In this document: in pieces, positions 50,137-58,754 of the stretch | Layout of the letters: every line of letters begins with the position of its first letter | How positions within the stretch are numbered: the stretch's first letter is position 1 | Assembly (NCBI GenBank): GCA_903917565.1 | Contig: CAIXBB010000038.1 | Coordinates: forward strand, 62,001 to 126,000 | Length of the DNA: 64,000 nucleotides | Source of the DNA: an uncultured cyanobacterium | GTDB lineage: Bacteria; Cyanobacteriota; Cyanobacteriia; PCC-6307; Cyanobiaceae | Direction of reading: 5' to 3' | Notes under the pieces: model-generated | The model's database searches: none | Seen by the model: only the letters and a program-made list of their open reading frames with translations | What the model was told of the DNA's origin: nothing | Made by a program: the position numbers and the translations under genes

Positions 50137-50799
50137 TCAGCCATCCTGGGCGTCCCGTTCGAACTGCTCGGCGGCCGCGGCGGTGTCCTGGCTCCCGAAC
50201 AGCGCCTGGGCAATCACCGGGCTGATCGTGTGGTGGGCCAGGCCGGCGGCGGCGAGGCGGGCCAGGTCCCCCGGCTGCCGCAGGCTGGCCACCAGCAGGC
50301 GGGTGCTGGAGCCCACCCCTTCGAGGGCCCGCTGCATGGCGATCAGCTCGCCATGGCCGTCGCGGCCGAGATCGCTGATGCGGCCGAGGTAGGCGGCGAT
50401 GCCATCGGCCCCGAGGGCGGCGGCCACCAGCACCTGCGCCACCTCGTAGCAGGCGGTGAAGGTGACAGGGATGCCTTCGGCGATCAGCTGCCGCGCCACC
50501 TCGGCCCCCCCCCGGGTGATCGGCACCTTCACCAGCACCCGCTGGGGATCTAATCCCGCCAGGGCCCGACCGGTGGCCAGCTGCTGTTCCCCATCACCTC
50601 CCCAGGTCTGCAGATGGAGCTCGCGGCAGCCCAGCTCGGCGGCGCGCTCACTCAGCCGGGCCAGGTGGTCGAGGCGGCAGGGCTGGCCGGCCCGCCGCAG
50701 CAGGGTCGGGTTGGTGGTGACCCCCTGGAACAGGCCACTGGGCAGCCAGCGCTCCCACTCCAGGGGATCGGCAGAATCGAGCAGCAGACGCAGGGCCAT
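50137..50799 (-). CDS. Short transaldolase / fructose-6-phosphate aldolase-like protein
   Basis: 220-residue TIM-barrel enzyme of the transaldolase B/FSA-like short class. The Schiff-base Lys is in VLVKVPITRGG; LLLDSADPLEWERWL and GVTTNPTLLRRAG are the N-terminal motifs, and VTFTACYEVAQVL and AAYLGRISDLGRDG follow. Full-length transaldolase of cyanobacteria is longer, so this is a second, different enzyme of the sugar-phosphate family. It is 5 nt downstream of the PP2C gene on the same strand and may be the last gene of the FHA-kinase transcript. Confidence 0.85.
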   Translation of the reverse strand: MALRLLLDSADPLEWERWLPSGLFQGVTTNPTLLRRAGQPCRLDHLARLSERAAELGCRELHLQTWGGDGEQQLATGRALAGLDPQRVLVKVPITRGGAEVARQLIAEGIPVTFTACYEVAQVLVAAALGADGIAAYLGRISDLGRDGHGELIAMQRALEGVGSSTRLLVASLRQPGDLARLAAAGLAHHTISPVIAQALFGSQDTAAAAEQFERDAQDG

Positions 50800-50804
50800 G
50801 GGGT

Positions 50805-52160
50805 TCAGGGGGGGGTGGCGGCCGTGGATTCGGCCCACTGCCGGCTGAGCGCCTCCAGCAGGGCCGGGCAGGCGCCGAGGGCGTGAAGAGGGCGGCGAGG
50901 TCTGGCCCCAGGAGGAGGGTCCGCAGGGGGTTTGTCTTCAGGGAGATCGCGGGCAGGAAGATCCGCCGCAATCAACGCGGCCAGGGGATCACTGGCGGCC
51001 GCGGCCTTGAGGCGGGCGGGATCCTGCCGGCCCTGGCGCAGGGCGACGAACAGCTCGCGGCGACGGCGCAGCTCCAGGGGAAGGGTGGCCGGCTGGCTGC
51101 AGAGGCGCTCCACCTCGGCCAGGGCGGCCCGCAGCCCGGGGGAGGTGGGCGTCGCCTGCTGCGGGGGCTGGGTTCGGGGCCAGACCAGACCAAGAGCGCC
51201 ACCACCGGCGGCGGCCAGGGCCAGGCCGATGGCCACCGCCCGACCGATCGCCGGACGTCGCCGCTGGGGGGGGGACGGCGGTGGCGCCGCCGGGGGGGAT
51301 GGCTTCATCGGAGGGGTTTCCGACGCCTGAGCTTGCAGTGGCGGCGGCAGTTCCTCGCCGAGACATCCGATGCGGCCAATGGTCACGGTCACGTCGTCGC
51401 CGCTGCCCTCCCGGCTGATCCGATCCAGCGCCTCCGGCAGGGTGCCGGCCGCCTCGGCGCCAGTGCGGGCCAACCACGCCGCCAGGGTGAGGAAGTCGCC
51501 GTCGGTGGCACAGGATTTGCGGATGCCGTCGGTGCAGAGCACCAGGGCGAAGTCGCGCTCTTCGGGAGACAGCGGATGCAGGCCCGCCCGGCGGGCGAAC
51601 AGGGCCGCCGCCCGGGGCTGGCAGAGGCTGCAGGTGGCTTCCCCGAGCGCGGTGGGCTCGTTCTCCTCCTCCAGCAGCCGGGCGCGGCCGTCCGCCTCCA
51701 CCCGCACCAGATCCCAGTCGCCCAGGCCGGTATGGCCCCACCAGCGGGGCGTCATCACCACCAGGCCCAGGGTGCTGCCGTAGAGCAGGGGCTCGAAGTC
51801 GCCGTCGCCAGGGTTGTTGTGCCAGTGGGCCTCTACCGCCTCCAGCCAGCGGCGCTGGACCGCCTCGGGCAGGTCCTGCGCCAGCCAGCGGCTCCAGCCC
51901 CCCTGCCCTTTCCCCGGGGGAGCCTCGGCCAGGGCGGCACCCGCCACGGCCAGGGCCGATTCGCAGGCCAGGCGACTGCCCACCTCACTGCGCCGGTAGC
52001 GTCGTCCACCATGGCCATCGGCCACCGCCATCAGCATGACCGGCTGCCCTTCGGCGTCGCACATCTCAACGCAGAGCATGGCGTCCTGACAGGGGCGGCC
52101 GGCACGCCGGTGGGCGGACCCGGCCCGGCTGGCACCAATCGGCGCCACCCAGCGGCTCAC
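50805..52160 (-). CDS. PP2C-type phosphatase with C-terminal membrane anchor (TerY-P triad)
   Basis: 451 residues from a GTG at 52160 that forms a GTGA overlap with the vWA stop. The PP2C domain (about residues 1-265) has the metal motifs AVADGHGG (48-51), GDWDLV (147-150), LCTDGI (210-212) and GSGDDVTV (254-256). A Pro-rich linker leads to one helix (about 307-327) and a further 120 residues outside or in the periplasm. It matches YegK of E. coli, whose neighbours are YegL (vWA) and YegI (kinase). It probably removes phosphates placed by the adjacent kinase. Confidence 0.85.
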   Translation of the reverse strand: MSRWVAPIGASRAGSAHRRAGRPCQDAMLCVEMCDAEGQPVMLMAVADGHGGRRYRRSEVGSRLACESALAVAGAALAEAPPGKGQGGWSRWLAQDLPEAVQRRWLEAVEAHWHNNPGDGDFEPLLYGSTLGLVVMTPRWWGHTGLGDWDLVRVEADGRARLLEEENEPTALGEATCSLCQPRAAALFARRAGLHPLSPEERDFALVLCTDGIRKSCATDGDFLTLAAWLARTGAEAAGTLPEALDRISREGSGDDVTVTIGRIGCLGEELPPPLQAQASETPPMKPSPPAAPPPSPPQRRRPAIGRAVAIGLALAAAGGGALGLVWPRTQPPQQATPTSPGLRAALAEVERLCSQPATLPLELRRRRELFVALRQGRQDPARLKAAAASDPLAALIAADLPARDLPEDKPPADPPPGARPRRPLHALGACPALLEALSRQWAESTAATPP

Positions 52161-52894
52161 CACACCAGGGGACCGACGTCGTCGGTGGGATCCAGCACGG
52201 TGGGGGGCAGATCCGGCAGGGGAATGTTGCCCGCTGCGGGCTCCAGGGGCGTCTCGCTCACCCGGCTGGCCGGCATTGAGGCTGCCCCCACCACCGCCGT
52301 GGAGGCCCATTGGATGTACTGGGCCAGGGAGGTGGCGTTGCTCGCCTGCAGGGGGCGGCGGGGCGAACGGCCCGCCGTCGCCGGCTCGCTGCCGATGAAG
52401 CGCTGCAGCACCTCCAGGTCGGCGTCATGGCCCAGGGCGATGGCCAGCCGCACCGACTTCTGGGCCCAGGGCACACGCAAAAGGGACTCGAGGCCGGCGG
52501 AGAAATCATCGGTGGGCTGGCCATCGGAGATCAGCACCAGCACCGGCGGCAGGGCGCGCACCTCCATCGGCGGGGTCTGCAGGGCCGCTGCCACCAGCTT
52601 CAGGGCCTCCCCCATGGCCGTGATGCCGCCGGCCTGCAGATCCCGCCACTCCAGCTGCTCCACCGGTGTGGGGGCCTCGATGTGCCAGGCGGCGTGGTCG
52701 GCGAAGCGCACGGCCCGCACCAGCACCCGCGCTTCCGGGTTGTCCCGGGCCACCGCCGCCATCCCCGGCAGCGACTGGCGGATGGCCTGGTTGAGGGCCT
52801 GCATTTTGCCCGAGGCGGCCATCGAGCCGGAGCAGTCGCAGAGGTAGAGGAAGTGGAGCGGCCGGTTGGCCAGCTTGACGTCGGGGAACGGCAT
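52157..52894 (-). CDS. TerY-like vWA-domain protein
   Basis: 245 residues. The vWA metal-ion-dependent adhesion site is complete: Asp20-x-Ser22-x-Ser24 (CDCSGSM), Thr92 (GGITAM) and Asp124 (LISDGQPTDD). The C-terminal 50 residues are Pro/Ala-rich. Proteins of this size with this motif beside a PP2C and a kinase are the TerY-P triad (E. coli YegL). The vWA domain is presumed to scaffold a phosphorylated partner. Coupled to the PP2C by a GTGA overlap and 3 nt downstream of the kinase. Confidence 0.87.
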   Translation of the reverse strand: MPFPDVKLANRPLHFLYLCDCSGSMAASGKMQALNQAIRQSLPGMAAVARDNPEARVLVRAVRFADHAAWHIEAPTPVEQLEWRDLQAGGITAMGEALKLVAAALQTPPMEVRALPPVLVLISDGQPTDDFSAGLESLLRVPWAQKSVRLAIALGHDADLEVLQRFIGSEPATAGRSPRRPLQASNATSLAQYIQWASTAVVGAASMPASRVSETPLEPAAGNIPLPDLPPTVLDPTDDVGPLVW

Positions 52895-52897
52895 CTC

Positions 52898-54253
52898 TCA
52901 GGCAGCGGGGGATGGCCGGGTGGGGCGTTGCACGGCGATCGGGCCCTCCGGGGTGTGGATCCGGGCGAGTGCGGCGAGGCTACAGCTCTCGCCAGGCTGC
53001 ACCGGCTGGGCGCGGCCGTCGGGGGCCTCGGCGCTCCAGGCGGCCGTCGAGAGATTGCGCAGCCCCAGCCGCCTGTGGTCCTGGGGATGGGCCACCACCC
53101 GGGCGAGCGGCCGGCGCAGGTCCTCCCCGGCCAGGGCATCGAAATGGTGGAGATGCAGCTCGTTGTCGGGCCCGGCCACCACGGCCCCCCTGGGCAGCGA
53201 CAGCGTGATCGGCTCCGGTAGCGGCGAGGCGCAGCTCCAGCACAGCGCCTGGGCGCCACTGGCCTGGAAGTTCTCCTGGTCGCAGGCGGGGCAGAGGGCG
53301 CGGCGGTCGAGGGTGCGGGCCAGTTCCTGCTTCCACTGGCCGGTGAGGGCGCGGCGGGAGGGTTGCTTCATGCCGCGGCAGAAGGTCTGCACGAACAGCG
53401 CCTGGAGGGGGCGGGGGTAGATGGGCCACGTGATCAGGGCGGCCGCATGCTCGATCGGGTCGGGCCGGTTGCGGGCATCCACCGGATCGAAGATGAACAC
53501 CGGGTCCTCGCCGCAGAGGCGGCGGCGGGCCGGCTCGTCGAGGCAGCGGATCGCCAGCTCCATCTGGCCCTTGAGGGGGTCGTGGCGGGTGAGAAGCCGG
53601 AACAGCAGCACCGCCAGGGAGAAAAGGTCGCTGTCGGCCCCAGGACGGGCCTGCCCCAGCAGCACCTCCGGGGCCATGAAGCCAGGGGTGCCCAGCACGG
53701 CGCCGTGGTCGGCGCCATCCACCGCGACGTTGTCGTTGTCGCAGATGAGGATGCTGCCGCTGCCGGGCTCCAGAAAGAGATTGCCCAGCGACACGTCCTT
53801 GTAGCAGAGCCCCGCCAGGTGGAGGGCATGGAAGGCATCGGAGAGGCAGAAACAGGCCCGCAGCACCTGGCGCAGGCCGATCGCCAGCCGGCCGGCGGCA
53901 TGCTCGCTGGCGCCCACGTAGGCGGGCGGCCGCAGGGGCATCAGGTAGCCGAAGCTCTCCTGGCGGATGCGGATCAGGGGGCGGCTGGCGGGGCTGGCCC
54001 GCAGCAGGGCGATCGGCCAGAGGAAATCGTCGTTCGGGGCGGTGGTCCGGATGCTTGCCACCAGGCGCTGCTCCAGGCCACCGTCACGGGCGATGCAGGC
54101 CGGCAGATACCACTTCAGGGCCAGCCGCTCCCCCTCCAGCTCCACCTCGTACACCTGGCCCTGGGTGCCGCCCCCGAGGCCCCGGATGATCTGAAGCGGT
54201 GCGGCCAGACCCTCGAAGCCCAGCCAGGCGCCCTCCGGCAGGATCCAGTTCAT
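52898..54253 (-). CDS. Serine/threonine-type protein kinase with zinc ribbon (YegI-like)
   Basis: 451 residues. Kinase elements: Gly-rich loop GLGGGTQGQVY, Lys47 (ALKWYL), HRD equivalent YKDVSLGN (Asp153, Asn158) and DFG equivalent CDNDN (Asp172), then GTPGFMAPEVLLG. The catalytic Asp, Asn and metal Asp are all kept, so activity is plausible. After the kinase lies a C-terminal zinc ribbon (Cys321-x2-Cys324...Cys338-x2-Cys341), then an OB-like or FHA-like region to the end. This is the TerY-P kinase architecture. ATGA overlap with the FHA gene. Confidence 0.85.
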   Translation of the reverse strand: MNWILPEGAWLGFEGLAAPLQIIRGLGGGTQGQVYEVELEGERLALKWYLPACIARDGGLEQRLVASIRTTAPNDDFLWPIALLRASPASRPLIRIRQESFGYLMPLRPPAYVGASEHAAGRLAIGLRQVLRACFCLSDAFHALHLAGLCYKDVSLGNLFLEPGSGSILICDNDNVAVDGADHGAVLGTPGFMAPEVLLGQARPGADSDLFSLAVLLFRLLTRHDPLKGQMELAIRCLDEPARRRLCGEDPVFIFDPVDARNRPDPIEHAAALITWPIYPRPLQALFVQTFCRGMKQPSRRALTGQWKQELARTLDRRALCPACDQENFQASGAQALCWSCASPLPEPITLSLPRGAVVAGPDNELHLHHFDALAGEDLRRPLARVVAHPQDHRRLGLRNLSTAAWSAEAPDGRAQPVQPGESCSLAALARIHTPEGPIAVQRPTRPSPAA

Positions 54254-54990
54254 GGCCGTCTCCCTGCCGCCGGGGCCGGACCCATGGCCTTGCGGATGCC
54301 ATTGCGGTGGGCCAGGGCCGTCTCCAGGCTGTCGAAGCGGTGCCGGTAGGCCAGGCCGTCCTGGAGGGTCACCTCCAGCAGATGCTCCCAACGGGAGCCC
54401 AGCAGGATCCAGCCCGCCAACGCCCCCACCTGCAGGGTCCAGAACAGCCAGGGGAAGGGAAGCAGCAACAGGCCGCCCAGGCAGAGCAGCAACCACCAGC
54501 TGAAGGCCTGGGGATGGCGCCGCCGGCTGCGCACGTAGGCCGAGCGGATCCGATCGAGGGACACCGAACGGCCGGCGAAATCCAGCTGTCCGGCAGCCGC
54601 CTGGGCCACCACCGGAGCCGCGGGGCGGACGGTGCCGGACGGGGCGGCCTGGGGGGAAGCACCGGGGGGTGGGCTGCCGGAAGCACGGAACTGCAGCACC
54701 GGACCCTTCAGGCCCAGCCGGATCTCGTCGCCGTCCGAGAGGGGCCGGCAATCCCGTAGCCGGGCTCCTTCGAGATAGGTGCCGTTGGCGCTGCCCAGGT
54801 CACAGAGCAGCCACTGGCCCGCCCTGGTGCGCGACATCCGCACCAGGGCATGGTGGCGGGAGACACCCTGGGCCTCAGCGATGCAGAGCCCGCTGGCCGG
54901 ATCACGGCCGATGGAGAGGGGCGTGCGGGGATCCAGCGGCACGCTTCGGCCGGGATCGTCACGCAGCAGCAGCCGGGGGTGGGAGCTCAT
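54250..54990 (-). CDS. Membrane-anchored FHA-domain protein
   Basis: 246 residues. An N-terminal FHA domain (about 1-105) has the phosphothreonine-binding motif residues: LSIGRDPASG, VSRHHALVR, DLGSANGTYLEGARL and DGDEIRLG. A Pro/Ala linker follows, then two membrane helices (about 165-205: SWWLLLCLGGLLLLPFPWLFW). The C-terminus (DGLAYRHRFDSLETALAHRNG) is cytoplasmic. It reads phosphothreonine, presumably made by the kinase encoded next in the operon, and is translationally coupled to both neighbours by ATGA overlaps. Confidence 0.88.
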   Translation of the reverse strand: MSSHPRLLLRDDPGRSVPLDPRTPLSIGRDPASGLCIAEAQGVSRHHALVRMSRTRAGQWLLCDLGSANGTYLEGARLRDCRPLSDGDEIRLGLKGPVLQFRASGSPPPGASPQAAPSGTVRPAAPVVAQAAAGQLDFAGRSVSLDRIRSAYVRSRRRHPQAFSWWLLLCLGGLLLLPFPWLFWTLQVGALAGWILLGSRWEHLLEVTLQDGLAYRHRFDSLETALAHRNGIRKAMGPAPAAGRRP

Positions 54991-55271
54991 CGCGGATCGT
55001 CAGCCTCACGGCGCCGGCGGCCCAGGCGCCGGTCGGCCAGGAACCGGCCCCACCAGCCCATCGGTTCCCCCTCCCGCCAGGGAATGACCCTCCCGGGGAA
55101 CAGCAGGGCCGAGGCGGCCAGCGCCAGGGCCACCAGCAGCAGCAGCAGCAGCAGCCAGCCGGGGATCGCCCCCACCCAGGTGGCGGCAAAGGTGGCCCGC
55201 ACCGCATACACCCCAATGGTCAGGGCGGTCCAGATGCGGAAGGGTGCCCATGGATCCCGCCGTTGCTCCAC
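54987..55271 (-). CDS. Small two-helix membrane protein
   Basis: 94 residues with two hydrophobic helices (about residues 14-34 and 36-62: GWLLLLLLLVALALAASALLF) and a strongly basic C-terminal tail (LADRRLGRRRREADDPR). Start uncertain, but the frame overlaps the FHA gene by an ATGA. It is the first gene of the coupled minus-strand run and is divergent from the FHA-PBP gene. No family recognised; by position, it may be an accessory of the FHA protein. Confidence 0.62.
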   Translation of the reverse strand: MEQRRDPWAPFRIWTALTIGVYAVRATFAATWVGAIPGWLLLLLLLVALALAASALLFPGRVIPWREGEPMGWWGRFLADRRLGRRRREADDPR

Positions 55272-55330
55272 CTGGCCGGCCCCTCCGATCGCTGCGGGTA
55301 GCGTATGGGAGCAAGGCAGACGGGCCGGGG

Positions 55331-57616
55331 ATGGTGGGGACGACGGAGCAGGCGTCGCCTGAGGACATCACCGCACCTGGCGCAGCACCCGAACCCGAAC
55401 CCGAATCCGCCGCAGGCTGGCTGAACCTCTGGCAGGCCTTTCGCGACCCCGCTCCGGCCTGCGGCCGCCGCCGCTCCGTGGTGGCGGCCCTGGGGGGGCT
55501 GAAACGCCACGGCGCCTGGCTGGAACTCTGGGTCGGCGGTCATTGCCGCCAGCGGCTGGCCCTGGAGGGGGGCCGCTACCGCATCGGCCGGGATCCCCTC
55601 TGCGAACTGCAGGCCGACGCCACCGGCGTCAGCCGGGTGCACGCGATCGTGGAGCAGGAACGCCCCGGCGACCGCGATTACGTCGGCGAGGATTTCGGCT
55701 CCGCCAACGGGGTCTTTCACCGCGATCGCCGCATCCGCGCCATCCACCTGCGGGACGGGGACCGGCTGCAGCTCGGCTCCCCGCTCAAGGGGGAGGCGCC
55801 AACCCTGGTGTATCGCCATCCACGCAGTCCCCTGGGGCAACTGGTGCACTGGGGGGCCATCGGCGCCCTCGTCGGCTCGGGCGTGGCCCTGGGGGGCCTG
55901 CTGCTGGCCACCACCGTCTCCGGCGGCTCCTCGATCCGGTCGGTGAGCGGACCGGTGAAGGTGTTCTCCACCGATGGCCGCCAGATCGATGCGGCCGAGG
56001 GCTCCTCGACGGCCCTGCCCACCCTGAACGACTACCCCCTGCACCTGCGCCAGGCCCTGATCGCTTCCGAGGACTCCCGCTTCGGCTGGAACAGCGGCAT
56101 CGACCTGTTCGGTACGGCACGCTCCCTGCTGCTGGGCACCGGCGGCGGCAGCGGCCTCACCCAGCAGGTGGCCCGCATGGTCTACCCGGCCGTGGGCACC
56201 GATGTGTCGCTGGCCCGCAAGCTGCGGGAGCTGTGGGTGGCCTGGCAGCTGGAGGCGGGCTTCAGCAAGAACAGGATCCTGAAGATGTACCTCGACCGGG
56301 CCTATCTGGGCCTGGGGGCGGAGGGGTTCGAGCAGGCGGCCCAGCTCTACTTCCGCAAGTCGGCCAGCGCCCTGGACGTGGCGGAGTCGGCCTTCCTGGT
56401 GGGCCTGCTGCCCAGCCCCAACAGCTACAGCCCCTGCAACCGGGAGAACCCCACCTGGGGCCGGGAGCGCCGCGACCTGGTGCTGTGGCGGATGCACGCC
56501 GAGGGCTATCTCTCCGACCAGGCTCTGATCGACGCCCGCCGCCGGCCGCTCAACATCGATCCTTCCGCATGCCGCGATTCCACCTACTCCAGCTATCCCT
56601 TCTTCAGCGACTACGTGATCGGCGAGCTGGAGGGACGCCGCTTCGGCCTTGACCTCAGCAGTCCGGAGGCCCGGGGCAACTACGCGGTGATCAGCAGCAT
56701 CGACCCCCGCCTGCAGGCCATCGCCCAGAAGCAGCTGAAGGTGTTCCTGGAGGGGCCGGGGGGCCGGGCCGGGCTCACCCAGGGCGCCCTGATCTCGATC
56801 GACTACAGCACCGGCGCGATCCTTGCCTATGTCGGCGGCGGTGATTACAGCCGTTCAAGCTTCGATCGGGTGCAGGCCCTGCGTCAGCCCGGATCCACCT
56901 TCAAGATGTTTTCCTTTCTGGCGGCCCTGGAGGCCGGCGTGAAGCCCGGCGATGCCGTCTCCTGCGCGCCCCTGGCCTATGTGGCCGGCTGCCGCCACAG
57001 CAGCGGCAACACCAGCGTGGCGGCGGGCTTCGCCAGCTCAGAGAACGTGGTGGCCCTTCGGCTGGCCCAGCAGGTCGGCCTGAACAAGGTGGTGGCCAAG
57101 GCCCGCCAGCTGGGCATCAGCACGCCGCTGGAGGAGAGCTTCTCGATGGTGCTGGGGGGCAAGGAGACCTACCTCTATGAGCTGGCGCGGGCCTACGCGG
57201 TGGTGGCCAACGGCGGTCGCTCGGTGCCCCTTCATGGTGTGAACCGCATCTATGACCTGGGCATCTGCGGCTCGGTGCGGAACCTGGCCGACTGCCCCCC
57301 CAGCGGCGTCACCACACCCATCGGCGAACGCCCGCAGCAGCTGATCGAACCGGCGGTGGCCGCCGAGATGGATGCCCTGCTGCGGCAGGTGGTGAGCGGC
57401 GGCACCGGCGGCGCCGCCGCCGTGGTGGCCGATGCCCGCGGCAAGACCGGCACCACCGACAACGGCGTCGATGTGCTGTTCGTGGGGTACTCCCCCTCCA
57501 GCCGCATCCTCACAGGCATCTGGATGGGCAACGACGACAACCGCCCCGCTCAGGCCGCCTCCGGTGCCCTGGTGGCCCAGCTATGGGGGCAGGTCATGCG
57601 CGCCCTGGCGAGCTGA
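55331..57616 (+). CDS. Class A penicillin-binding protein with N-terminal FHA domain
   Basis: 761-residue bifunctional peptidoglycan synthase. Order: FHA domain (about residues 68-160; RIGRDPLCEL, VSRVHAIVEQ, DFGSANGVF), one membrane helix (about 172-197), glycosyltransferase 51 with Glu247 (IASEDSRFGWNSG), then transpeptidase with Ser522-x2-Lys (GSTFK), SEN (570-572) and KTG (705-707). The FHA domain is on the cytoplasmic side and can receive a phosphothreonine signal. The ATG at 55331 is used; an upstream GTG would overlap the divergent gene. Together with the opposite operon it suggests control of wall synthesis by phosphorylation. Confidence 0.93.
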   Translation: MVGTTEQASPEDITAPGAAPEPEPESAAGWLNLWQAFRDPAPACGRRRSVVAALGGLKRHGAWLELWVGGHCRQRLALEGGRYRIGRDPLCELQADATGVSRVHAIVEQERPGDRDYVGEDFGSANGVFHRDRRIRAIHLRDGDRLQLGSPLKGEAPTLVYRHPRSPLGQLVHWGAIGALVGSGVALGGLLLATTVSGGSSIRSVSGPVKVFSTDGRQIDAAEGSSTALPTLNDYPLHLRQALIASEDSRFGWNSGIDLFGTARSLLLGTGGGSGLTQQVARMVYPAVGTDVSLARKLRELWVAWQLEAGFSKNRILKMYLDRAYLGLGAEGFEQAAQLYFRKSASALDVAESAFLVGLLPSPNSYSPCNRENPTWGRERRDLVLWRMHAEGYLSDQALIDARRRPLNIDPSACRDSTYSSYPFFSDYVIGELEGRRFGLDLSSPEARGNYAVISSIDPRLQAIAQKQLKVFLEGPGGRAGLTQGALISIDYSTGAILAYVGGGDYSRSSFDRVQALRQPGSTFKMFSFLAALEAGVKPGDAVSCAPLAYVAGCRHSSGNTSVAAGFASSENVVALRLAQQVGLNKVVAKARQLGISTPLEESFSMVLGGKETYLYELARAYAVVANGGRSVPLHGVNRIYDLGICGSVRNLADCPPSGVTTPIGERPQQLIEPAVAAEMDALLRQVVSGGTGGAAAVVADARGKTGTTDNGVDVLFVGYSPSSRILTGIWMGNDDNRPAQAASGALVAQLWGQVMRALAS

Positions 57617-57647: not shown

Positions 57648-58754
57648 TCAGCCCAGCCAGCCCAGGCTCCTGGCCAGCTCCTGGGCGCGGGTGACCAGGG
57701 CCCAGGCCGTTCCCAGCACGGTGCCCCACCACCAGGGGCTGCTCCAGAGCCGGGCCATGGGGCTGCTGGTGTCCTGGGGATCGCGGCGGGGCAGTTGCCA
57801 GCCCAGTTGCACCGCCCCATAGACCACCAGCAGCACCCAAGCGGGGATCTCCACCGGGCCCAGCACGAAGGGATGGACCTTCCAGTGCAGCAGGCTGAGG
57901 ACCGCGGCCAGGGCGATCAAGGCCGCGATCGGCCCGGAGGCCCCGTCCCACTGCCGCAGCACCCGGGCCCGGCCGGCCACCAGCACCGCCGGTGCCGTGG
58001 TGGCAAGGGCGGTGAGGGCATAGCGCAGCAGCAGGGAGGCCAGGGGCAGCGACGAGCCGCCCAGCACGATCGTCAGCATCACCAGGTTGAGCAGGGCCTC
58101 GCGGTTGGCCGCATGGATCCAGGGGGCGGTGATCCAGCACCAGGCACGGCGCGGGTCGCCGCTGGCCTCGAGGGCCAGGGGCCAGCGGCGGCGAAGGGCC
58201 CGCAGCGGGCCGAGGGCAAGGGCCTGGATCAGGGCCAGAGCCAGCACCAGCACCACGCCGCTGCCCCAGCGCCAGGGATCGAAGAACCACTTGTCGAGCT
58301 CCCCACCGGCCCAGAACAGCACCGGCGCCGAGGCGGCGGCCAGGGCCAGCCCTGGACCGAGGAGCCGCAGGCTCTCCTGCCACGGCAGGAGGAAGCGCCC
58401 GGGGGCGGCAGAGGCAGCGCCAGCGACCGGGGGATCGCCAGCTGGGCGGGAGGGAGGCACACCGGAGCAGGCCTCCAGCAGGTCGAGCAGTTCGGCCAGC
58501 ACCTTCGGCGCATAGATGCCGGCCAGATGGTGGCTGAGGGCCGTGATGGCACTGCGCTGGGGACCACCCTGCCGTTGCAGCACCTGCAGGAGAAGGGGCT
58601 GGGTGGCGAGATCGCGCACGGGTCCGCGCAGGCTCTCTTCAGCCCCGAGGGCGTCGATCAGCCGGTTGGCCAGAGCCTGGGGATTGTCCAGGCTGACGGA
58701 ACCGGTGACGATCCACTGGCGCAGTTGCAGACCGAGTTCCCGACCCTTGCCCAT
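57648..58754 (-). CDS. Rhomboid-like membrane protein, probably catalytically inactive
   Basis: 368 residues. The N-terminal 120 residues are soluble and helical (a cyanobacterial extension), followed by about seven helices. The rhomboid-like core is visible: IHAANREALLNLVMLTIVLG (213-232; like H-x3-N-G of TM2), GASG (271-274; catalytic Ser273) and WWWG-x3-G (341-348). However, the second His of the TM2 motif is Glu219 and the catalytic TM6 His is Trp, so it is probably a pseudoprotease. It lies 32 nt upstream of atpC on the same strand. Assignment is by pattern only. Confidence 0.5.
   Translation of the reverse strand: MGKGRELGLQLRQWIVTGSVSLDNPQALANRLIDALGAEESLRGPVRDLATQPLLLQVLQRQGGPQRSAITALSHHLAGIYAPKVLAELLDLLEACSGVPPSRPAGDPPVAGAASAAPGRFLLPWQESLRLLGPGLALAAASAPVLFWAGGELDKWFFDPWRWGSGVVLVLALALIQALALGPLRALRRRWPLALEASGDPRRAWCWITAPWIHAANREALLNLVMLTIVLGGSSLPLASLLLRYALTALATTAPAVLVAGRARVLRQWDGASGPIAALIALAAVLSLLHWKVHPFVLGPVEIPAWVLLVVYGAVQLGWQLPRRDPQDTSSPMARLWSSPWWWGTVLGTAWALVTRAQELARSLGWLG

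Follow-up and report, generated by a model that had tools for sequence, protein, structure and literature searches.

A TerY-P-type signalling block co-inherited with an FHA-bearing class A penicillin-binding protein in picocyanobacteria

We analysed a stretch of 64,000 nucleotides (the window) from an uncultured cyanobacterium of the family Cyanobiaceae (contig CAIXBB010000038.1, positions 62,001 to 126,000), whose source assembly measures 3.0 Mb and whose relatives are picocyanobacteria. Between positions 50805 and 57616, the window carries a block of genes encoding a TerY-P-type triad (kinase, VWA protein and PP2C phosphatase), a membrane FHA protein, a small membrane protein and a class A penicillin-binding protein (PBP) with its own FHA domain. 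We propose that the block, which is found in freshwater picocyanobacteria, is a co-inherited signalling module that puts this peptidoglycan synthase under phosphothreonine control, a reading drawn from comparison of sequences, to which we give a probability of about 0.6. What the comparison shows is that the genes are passed on together, that the enzymes have retained their catalytic residues and that the FHA site of the PBP is intact.

Results

Layout of the block

Pfam domains were matched in every protein of the block bar the small one. The features are as follows, with E-values of the Pfam matches in brackets.

50805..52160, minus strand: PP2C phosphatase with a hydrophobic, probably transmembrane, segment and a C-terminal extension (PP2C_2, 9.9e-25)
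52157..52894, minus strand: TerY-like VWA protein (VWA_2, 6.4e-6) with a complete metal-ion-dependent adhesion site (MIDAS) and the C-terminal tail PLPDLPPTVLD
52190..52222, minus strand: this VWA tail, a candidate phosphothreonine ligand on the conservation of the tail
52898..54253, minus strand: Hanks-type kinase with a C-terminal zinc ribbon and an FHA-like domain (Pkinase, 7.3e-13)
52919..53215, minus strand: FHA-like beta-sandwich at the kinase C-terminus (AlphaFold model, Foldseek, VIA-align)
54250..54990, minus strand: membrane FHA protein (FHA, 1.4e-16)
54987..55271, minus strand: small membrane protein of 94 amino acids (aa), with RDPW conserved near the N-terminus
55272..55330: divergent gap, presumed promoter region, of 59 nucleotides (nt) if the PBP starts at ATG 55331
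55331..57616, plus strand: class A PBP with an N-terminal FHA domain (FHA, 9.8e-12; Transgly, 2.9e-43; Transpeptidase, 4.7e-24)
55577..55777, plus strand: FHA domain of the PBP (Pfam, residues 112-178 of the longest open reading frame, ORF)

The minus strand carries, head to tail between 55271 and 50805, the small membrane protein, the membrane FHA protein, the kinase, the VWA protein and the phosphatase, in this order; the PBP faces them on the plus strand. Direct reading of the junctions agreed with what a sequence-only reading of this DNA had described. The small gene overlaps that of the FHA protein (ATG 54990), and the latter that of the kinase (ATG 54253), through ATGA; three nt separate the kinase stop from the VWA start (ATG 52894), and the VWA and PP2C genes share a GTGA overlap (GTG 52160). 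The same reading had placed a class A PBP with its own FHA domain on the other side, which the three Pfam matches bear out. The longest ORF of the PBP, from GTG 55244, would overlap the small gene (start 55271); an in-frame ATG is available at 55331 and is the likelier start. As to the single promoter proposed for both sides, the divergent arrangement stands, while the promoter itself is presumed. A short divergent gap, or overlap of the longest ORFs, is found in the window and in relatives alike.

Conservation of the block

We searched 150 genomes of the order and found the triad kinase in 33. In 32 of these, the FHA protein and a divergent FHA-bearing frame of PBP size lie beside the kinase; the exception is Prochlorococcus sp. 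MIT 0701 (G005). Whole genes of the block were confirmed in 24 of the 25 loci that were fetched. Among named picocyanobacterial loci, the order PBP, small protein, FHA protein, kinase is kept in 30 of 32 (30/31 scorable), the other two being L122, which is cut by a contig end and hence unscorable, and MIT 0701; at L120 and L131 the contig stops before the VWA and PP2C genes. Since some named loci are also among the numbered genomes, the two sets of counts are not independent of each other, and the residue counts given below, from alignments of 31 and 33 sequences, include the window itself. That the block could be peculiar to this strain is thereby ruled out, and the conserved gene order for which the sequence-only reading had asked was found. 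Two genomes, G017 and G143, carry the block in genera (g5 and g14) of which no other sampled member has the kinase. In a tree of kinases, those of picocyanobacteria form one fully supported branch, with MIT 0701 inside it. Among genomes of the wider phylum (386), all close kinases (at least 59 percent identity) belong to the family of the window.

Beyond picocyanobacteria, we examined the kinase flanks of 47 loci, one of which (L135) is from another cyanobacterium, with models built from this block. The PBP was seen in none of them, and 36 show VWA and PP2C genes near the kinase, several of the contigs being short. The 386 genomes also yielded 22 distant kinases outside the family; in the 13 neighbourhoods scanned there was no FHA or PBP match at E ≤ 1e-3, with models that, being derived from the block, may miss divergent FHA domains. 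FHA matches occurred in just two of the 47 outside loci, a Thermomicrobiales bin (L161) and an actinomycete bin (L176). In both, as in MIT 0701 (L037), an FHA-FHA-ABC-2 transporter lies near a triad that has no PBP, an indication that the output of TerY-P-type triads can be swapped between one FHA-fused membrane effector and another.

The transporter of MIT 0701 is at L037:3347-5704 (minus strand), and a protein combining trypsin and TPR domains also lies near the triad; the contig measures 22 kb and bears an integrase-like ORF, recognized by eye. L123, titled as a metagenome-assembled genome of Bifidobacterium breve, carries the picocyanobacterial block and branches with cyanobacteria; it is probably mis-binned or mislabelled.

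Each FHA-PBP tracks its own kinase

Three FHA matches occur in the genome of the window. Two belong to the block, in its PBP and in its membrane FHA protein; the third is in another PBP, the second FHA-PBP, which shares about 40 percent identity with the PBP of the block. It also has two kinases over the Pfam cut-off, the triad kinase and one encoded elsewhere.

L064:3419-5572 (G000:C10), minus strand: second Ser/Thr kinase, membrane-type, 717 aa

Across the 150 genomes, FHA domains were found in 74 and kinases over the cut-off in 76, and all 74 fall within the 76. The genomes divide as follows; any Pkinase match that passes the cut-off and is not the triad kinase counts here as the second kinase.

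Both kinases: 30/150; 29 with both FHA-PBPs, G005 with neither
Triad kinase only: 3/150 (G010, G101, G105); all with the locus FHA-PBP only
Second kinase only: 43/150; 41 with the second FHA-PBP only
Neither kinase: 74/150; FHA-PBP in none

In this division the second kinase was set to absent from the alignment for G010, G101 and G105, and is counted as present in G005 and G027, where the catalytic Asn is changed, and in G147, where the frame is broken. The locus FHA-PBP thus occurs in 32 of the 33 triad-kinase genomes and in none of the 117 others. Over the whole set of 150, the presence of either FHA-PBP follows that of its own kinase. The pattern also holds within the single genus g9, in which 3 of 18 genomes have FHA and 4 of 18 a kinase over the cut-off, with an overlap of 3.

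A match to the second kinase was obtained in 89 genomes, of which 70 have the second FHA-PBP and 19 lack it; in the remaining genomes, which also lack this PBP, the kinase was undetected. In all 24 kinases examined from the 70, we found HGD, the catalytic Asn, D[FY]G and, after the kinase domain, a segment R[AS]DRT[VL]. Seventeen of the 19 were fetched, all but G086 and G100; dropping the fragmentary G024, G028 and G057 left 14 to score. Eleven of these 14 remnants are pseudokinases, in which the Asn is changed, DFG is altered or missing and the activation segment and RADRT[VL] are absent. Among the remaining ones, G005 and G020 keep DRT and G027 has DRP; the catalytic Asn is lost in G005 and G027, and the G020 kinase looks intact.

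The FHA domain of the PBP and its synthase sites

The canonical phosphothreonine-binding FHA consensus consists of Arg, Ser, Arg, His, Asn and Gly. In the PBP of the block, the corresponding residues R116, S130, R131, H133, N155 and G156 are present in 31 of 31 sequences (30 and the window), and the domain, presumably cytoplasmic, can be aligned to its FHA counterparts in Rv1747 and EmbR. The glycosyltransferase Glu is likewise kept in 31/31; the SxxK and SxN residues are seen in 30/31 (one gap) and KTG in 28/31 (three gaps), with no substitution at any of them.

The triad

We looked at the catalytic sites of the triad in the same way. In the kinase, the Gly loop, the Lys, the catalytic Asp and Asn, the Asp of the DFG position, the Glu of APE and the four Cys of the zinc ribbon (CxxC...CxxC) are found in 33/33 sequences. 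Searched against Pfam at E ≤ 0.01, the kinase gave Pkinase alone, with no PASTA domain. The part past the zinc ribbon was modelled with AlphaFold from an alignment with 37 relatives (37 of 55 rows kept, the rest holding a stop or lacking the Cys pattern in the stretch taken), at a predicted local distance difference test score (pLDDT) of 91.8. With Foldseek, the six best rows are the FHA domain of human APLF (best E 0.024, probability 1.00), none reaching 0.001. With VIA-align, the first 40 rows are FHA domains, followed by SMAD MH2 domains, a fold related to FHA; the best match is the FHA domain of DgcB (Z 8.8, root-mean-square deviation 2.5, 84 residues aligned), where a Z under 8 can, as the tool warns, reflect a common arrangement. 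FHA folds come first and no oligonucleotide/oligosaccharide-binding (OB) fold, to which the kinase of anti-phage TerY-P units of the Gao 2020 type is fused C-terminally, is among the matches listed, which alone does not exclude an OB-fold; the Pfam FHA model does not recognize the domain. On the model, the triad kinase is predicted to end in an FHA-like fold. Because this C-terminal part can be aligned over 37 kinases of several phyla, the FHA-like domain is, as judged from the alignment, a property of the kinase family and not of the link with the PBP.

In the VWA protein, the MIDAS residues D20, S22, S24, T92 and D124 are kept in 31/31. Its tail reads PLP[DE]LPPT, with the Thr in 31/31 and an Asp at +3 in 27/31, and FHA domains can favour Asp at +3. 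Outside picocyanobacteria the VWA tails mostly end in W, often with NVPIP, and LPPT is present in none. The conservation of the tail makes its Thr (LPPTxxD) perhaps a phosphothreonine ligand, a candidate that we hold only tentatively.

The metal-site Asp of the PP2C phosphatase is kept in 31/31. The search for PP2C covered the single family PF13672; within it, the phosphatase of the block is the sole PP2C_2 match of its genome, and matches were present in 33/33 triad genomes and, over the cut-off, in one other (G131). The extension past the hydrophobic segment is variable, the ORF being short in L037 (295 aa) and L039 (266 aa); it lies possibly outside the membrane, and the phosphatase may act as a sensor.

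The membrane FHA protein and the small protein

The membrane FHA protein consists of an FHA domain, a linker, two helices resembling a transmembrane hairpin and a short C-terminal domain with TAL.HRNG.R.A (model with pLDDT 78.7 and a predicted template modelling score, pTM, of 0.44). Residues R29, S44 and N69 of its FHA domain are all present in the protein of the window. Pfam gave no match for its C-terminal tail, nor for the small membrane protein.

Neighbouring genes

57648..58754, minus strand: rhomboid-like membrane protein, convergent to the PBP (Rhomboid, 1.4e-5)

The rhomboid-like gene was found in 30 of the 33 kinase genomes, against 0 of the 117 others (E ≤ 1e-10), and stands apart from the block in two of the 30 (G029 and G112). 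Since it is confined to kinase-bearing genomes, the block probably extends past 57616 to include it. Of 21 aligned rows, 8 have Ala or Thr in place of the serine of the GASG motif, and some of these proteins may therefore be inactive.

At the other end, a transaldolase-like gene (50137-50799) has its ATG 5 nt past the PP2C stop. Of the 25 fetched loci, 13 have it, on one side of the block or on the other, and it is therefore probably not part of the circuit.

Discussion

If the proposed module operates as its parts suggest, the kinase would phosphorylate a threonine, with the VWA protein tuning its activity and the zinc ribbon and FHA-like tail setting its position, and the PP2C phosphatase would take this mark off. 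The FHA domain of the PBP would bind the phosphothreonine, so that the wall enzyme would be recruited or switched on only under an active kinase. The membrane FHA protein and the small membrane protein would probably form a membrane platform, for which the former need not bind phosphothreonine. Inside the block, the likeliest ligand would be the Thr of LPPTxxD in the VWA tail, with the kinase itself as an alternative. The second membrane-type Ser/Thr kinase and the second FHA-PBP would be a separate pair following the same logic.

Several of our results weigh against phosphothreonine control by the block, or against parts of it. Firstly, R29, S44 and N69 of the membrane FHA protein occur together in 21 of 31 scorable rows, at least one being lost in 10/31; in the numbered set, which overlaps, all three are seen in 10/25 and at least one is lost in 15/25 (by eye). 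The sequence-only reading had drawn a closed circuit in which both FHA proteins read the kinase's mark. The arrangement of the genes and the site in the PBP (31/31) uphold that circuit in part; because the membrane FHA protein loses these residues in many orthologues, the circuit as written is not supported, and two conserved phosphothreonine readers are ruled out. Absent binding residues in homologues were among the outcomes that the sequence-only reading had itself named as refuting it, and for the membrane FHA protein this outcome is in part observed. Judging by these residues, the membrane FHA protein would often not be a phosphothreonine reader, and because the site is invariant in the PBP and often not in the membrane protein, the PBP is the likely reader of the block. 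Secondly, MIT 0701 has the triad but neither the FHA-PBP nor the membrane FHA protein, and the triad is lacking in 41 genomes that do have an FHA-PBP. The latter rules out that any FHA-PBP implies the triad; an FHA domain on a PBP does not by itself imply the triad kinase. G020 and G027, moreover, have a second kinase over the Pfam cut-off and no FHA-PBP. Thirdly, the VWA tails of four loci (L127-L130) have no Asp at +3, and PPT is present in two tails outside picocyanobacteria (L136 and L170). Fourthly, a scan of 54900-55700 for sigma-70-type promoters returned 0 sites. Lastly, the genomes are related, so that our counts are not counts of independent events, and no species tree stands behind them.

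Other explanations were weighed against phosphothreonine control of the PBP. The triad could be a general stress or anti-phage unit of TerY-P type that has the FHA-PBP as a neighbour by gene order, wall synthesis being a downstream shield or unrelated. TerY-P triads are indeed linked to tellurite resistance and restriction systems, and a version with an OB-fold to phage defence, in the portions of PMC11090510 and PMC7699616 available to us; the PBP is seen in none of the 47 loci outside picocyanobacteria, and the PADLOC model for TerY matches the VWA protein weakly (E 0.0037). However, the locus FHA-PBP is confined to triad-kinase genomes and stays in three genomes that have no second FHA-PBP, and the C-terminal domain of the kinase matches FHA folds in the top rows. 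We regard this explanation as unlikely, though it fares best among the alternatives. Slightly less probable, in our estimate, is that the FHA domains are phospho-independent scaffolds that join the kinase, the membrane FHA protein and the PBP at the membrane, with regulation by assembly. This would fit a membrane FHA protein that often lacks the R, S or N, and a kinase domain that Pfam FHA does not recognize; yet a scaffold does not require the canonical residues that the PBP keeps throughout, nor would it account for the absence of the second FHA-PBP where its kinase has decayed. A mainly transcriptional link, in which the divergent gap co-expresses an accessory PBP with the signalling operon in certain growth states and there is no direct phospho-control, agrees with the short gap or ORF overlap in the window and relatives, but is improbable, as it explains neither the intact FHA site of the PBP nor why the second FHA-PBP goes with a kinase to which it is not linked, and no promoter consensus was seen in the gap.

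The block can be compared with several known systems. In the available text of PMC11090510, the TerY-P triad comprises a VWA protein, a PP2C phosphatase and a kinase with a zinc ribbon. Our block likewise has all three proteins adjacent, with the MIDAS, the PP2C metal site and the four zinc-ribbon Cys; unlike that triad, it adds a membrane FHA protein and a class A FHA-PBP, and its kinase has an FHA-like domain after the zinc ribbon. In Escherichia coli, YegI, YegK and YegL form a trio of kinase, PP2C and VWA proteins, for which we know of no link with an FHA protein or a PBP. Serine/threonine-kinase control of peptidoglycan is familiar from Actinobacteria and Firmicutes, mostly through separate adaptor proteins. 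In pneumococcus, StkP phosphorylates MacP, a regulator of a class A PBP, according to the accessible part of PMC12077195. The actinobacterial pknB-pknA-pbpA-rodA-pstP-fhaB-fhaA cluster brings together a kinase, a PP2C phosphatase, FHA proteins and a PBP acting in wall synthesis and division, as far as the consulted parts of PMC6554272 and PMC11898655 describe it. Sharing a kinase, PP2C, FHA and a PBP in one locus, it is by analogy the nearest functional parallel to the block. There, the kinase is of PASTA type, PbpA comes with RodA and the FHA domains are on separate proteins, whereas the block has a TerY-P-type kinase, a VWA protein and an FHA domain fused to its PBP, and no RodA was matched among the 8 locus proteins scanned by Pfam. 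Actinobacterial PbpA is of class B; the PBP of the block, with Transgly and Transpeptidase domains, is of class A. Rv1747, an FHA-FHA-ABC transporter paired with the kinase PknF, resembles the block in that FHA is fused to a kinase-paired membrane effector, which in that case is a transporter and not a peptidoglycan synthase. In the literature searched, chiefly freely readable papers, the combination of triad, FHA protein and FHA-PBP is in none among the matches listed.

A wider proposal, which goes beyond control of the PBP by the block and which we consider possible rather than probable, is that picocyanobacteria operate a pair of parallel phospho-circuits, insulated from each other, and that a class A synthase with an FHA domain fused to it stands at the end of each. 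LPPTxxD of the VWA protein would be the ligand in one and the juxta-kinase RADRT[VL] segment the docking mark in the other; upon loss of the FHA-PBP, the kinase would die and the docking segment go. On this view, TerY-P triads would serve as writers for FHA-fused membrane effectors at large, a PBP in one lineage and an ABC transporter in others.

The block stands out in two respects: its synthase carries the phospho-reader in the same polypeptide, and the proposed writer is a triad of TerY-P type. The joint loss of the FHA-PBP, the active kinase and the proposed docking segment leads to short candidate peptides and, if the proposed control is true, TerY-P triads would gain a concrete job.

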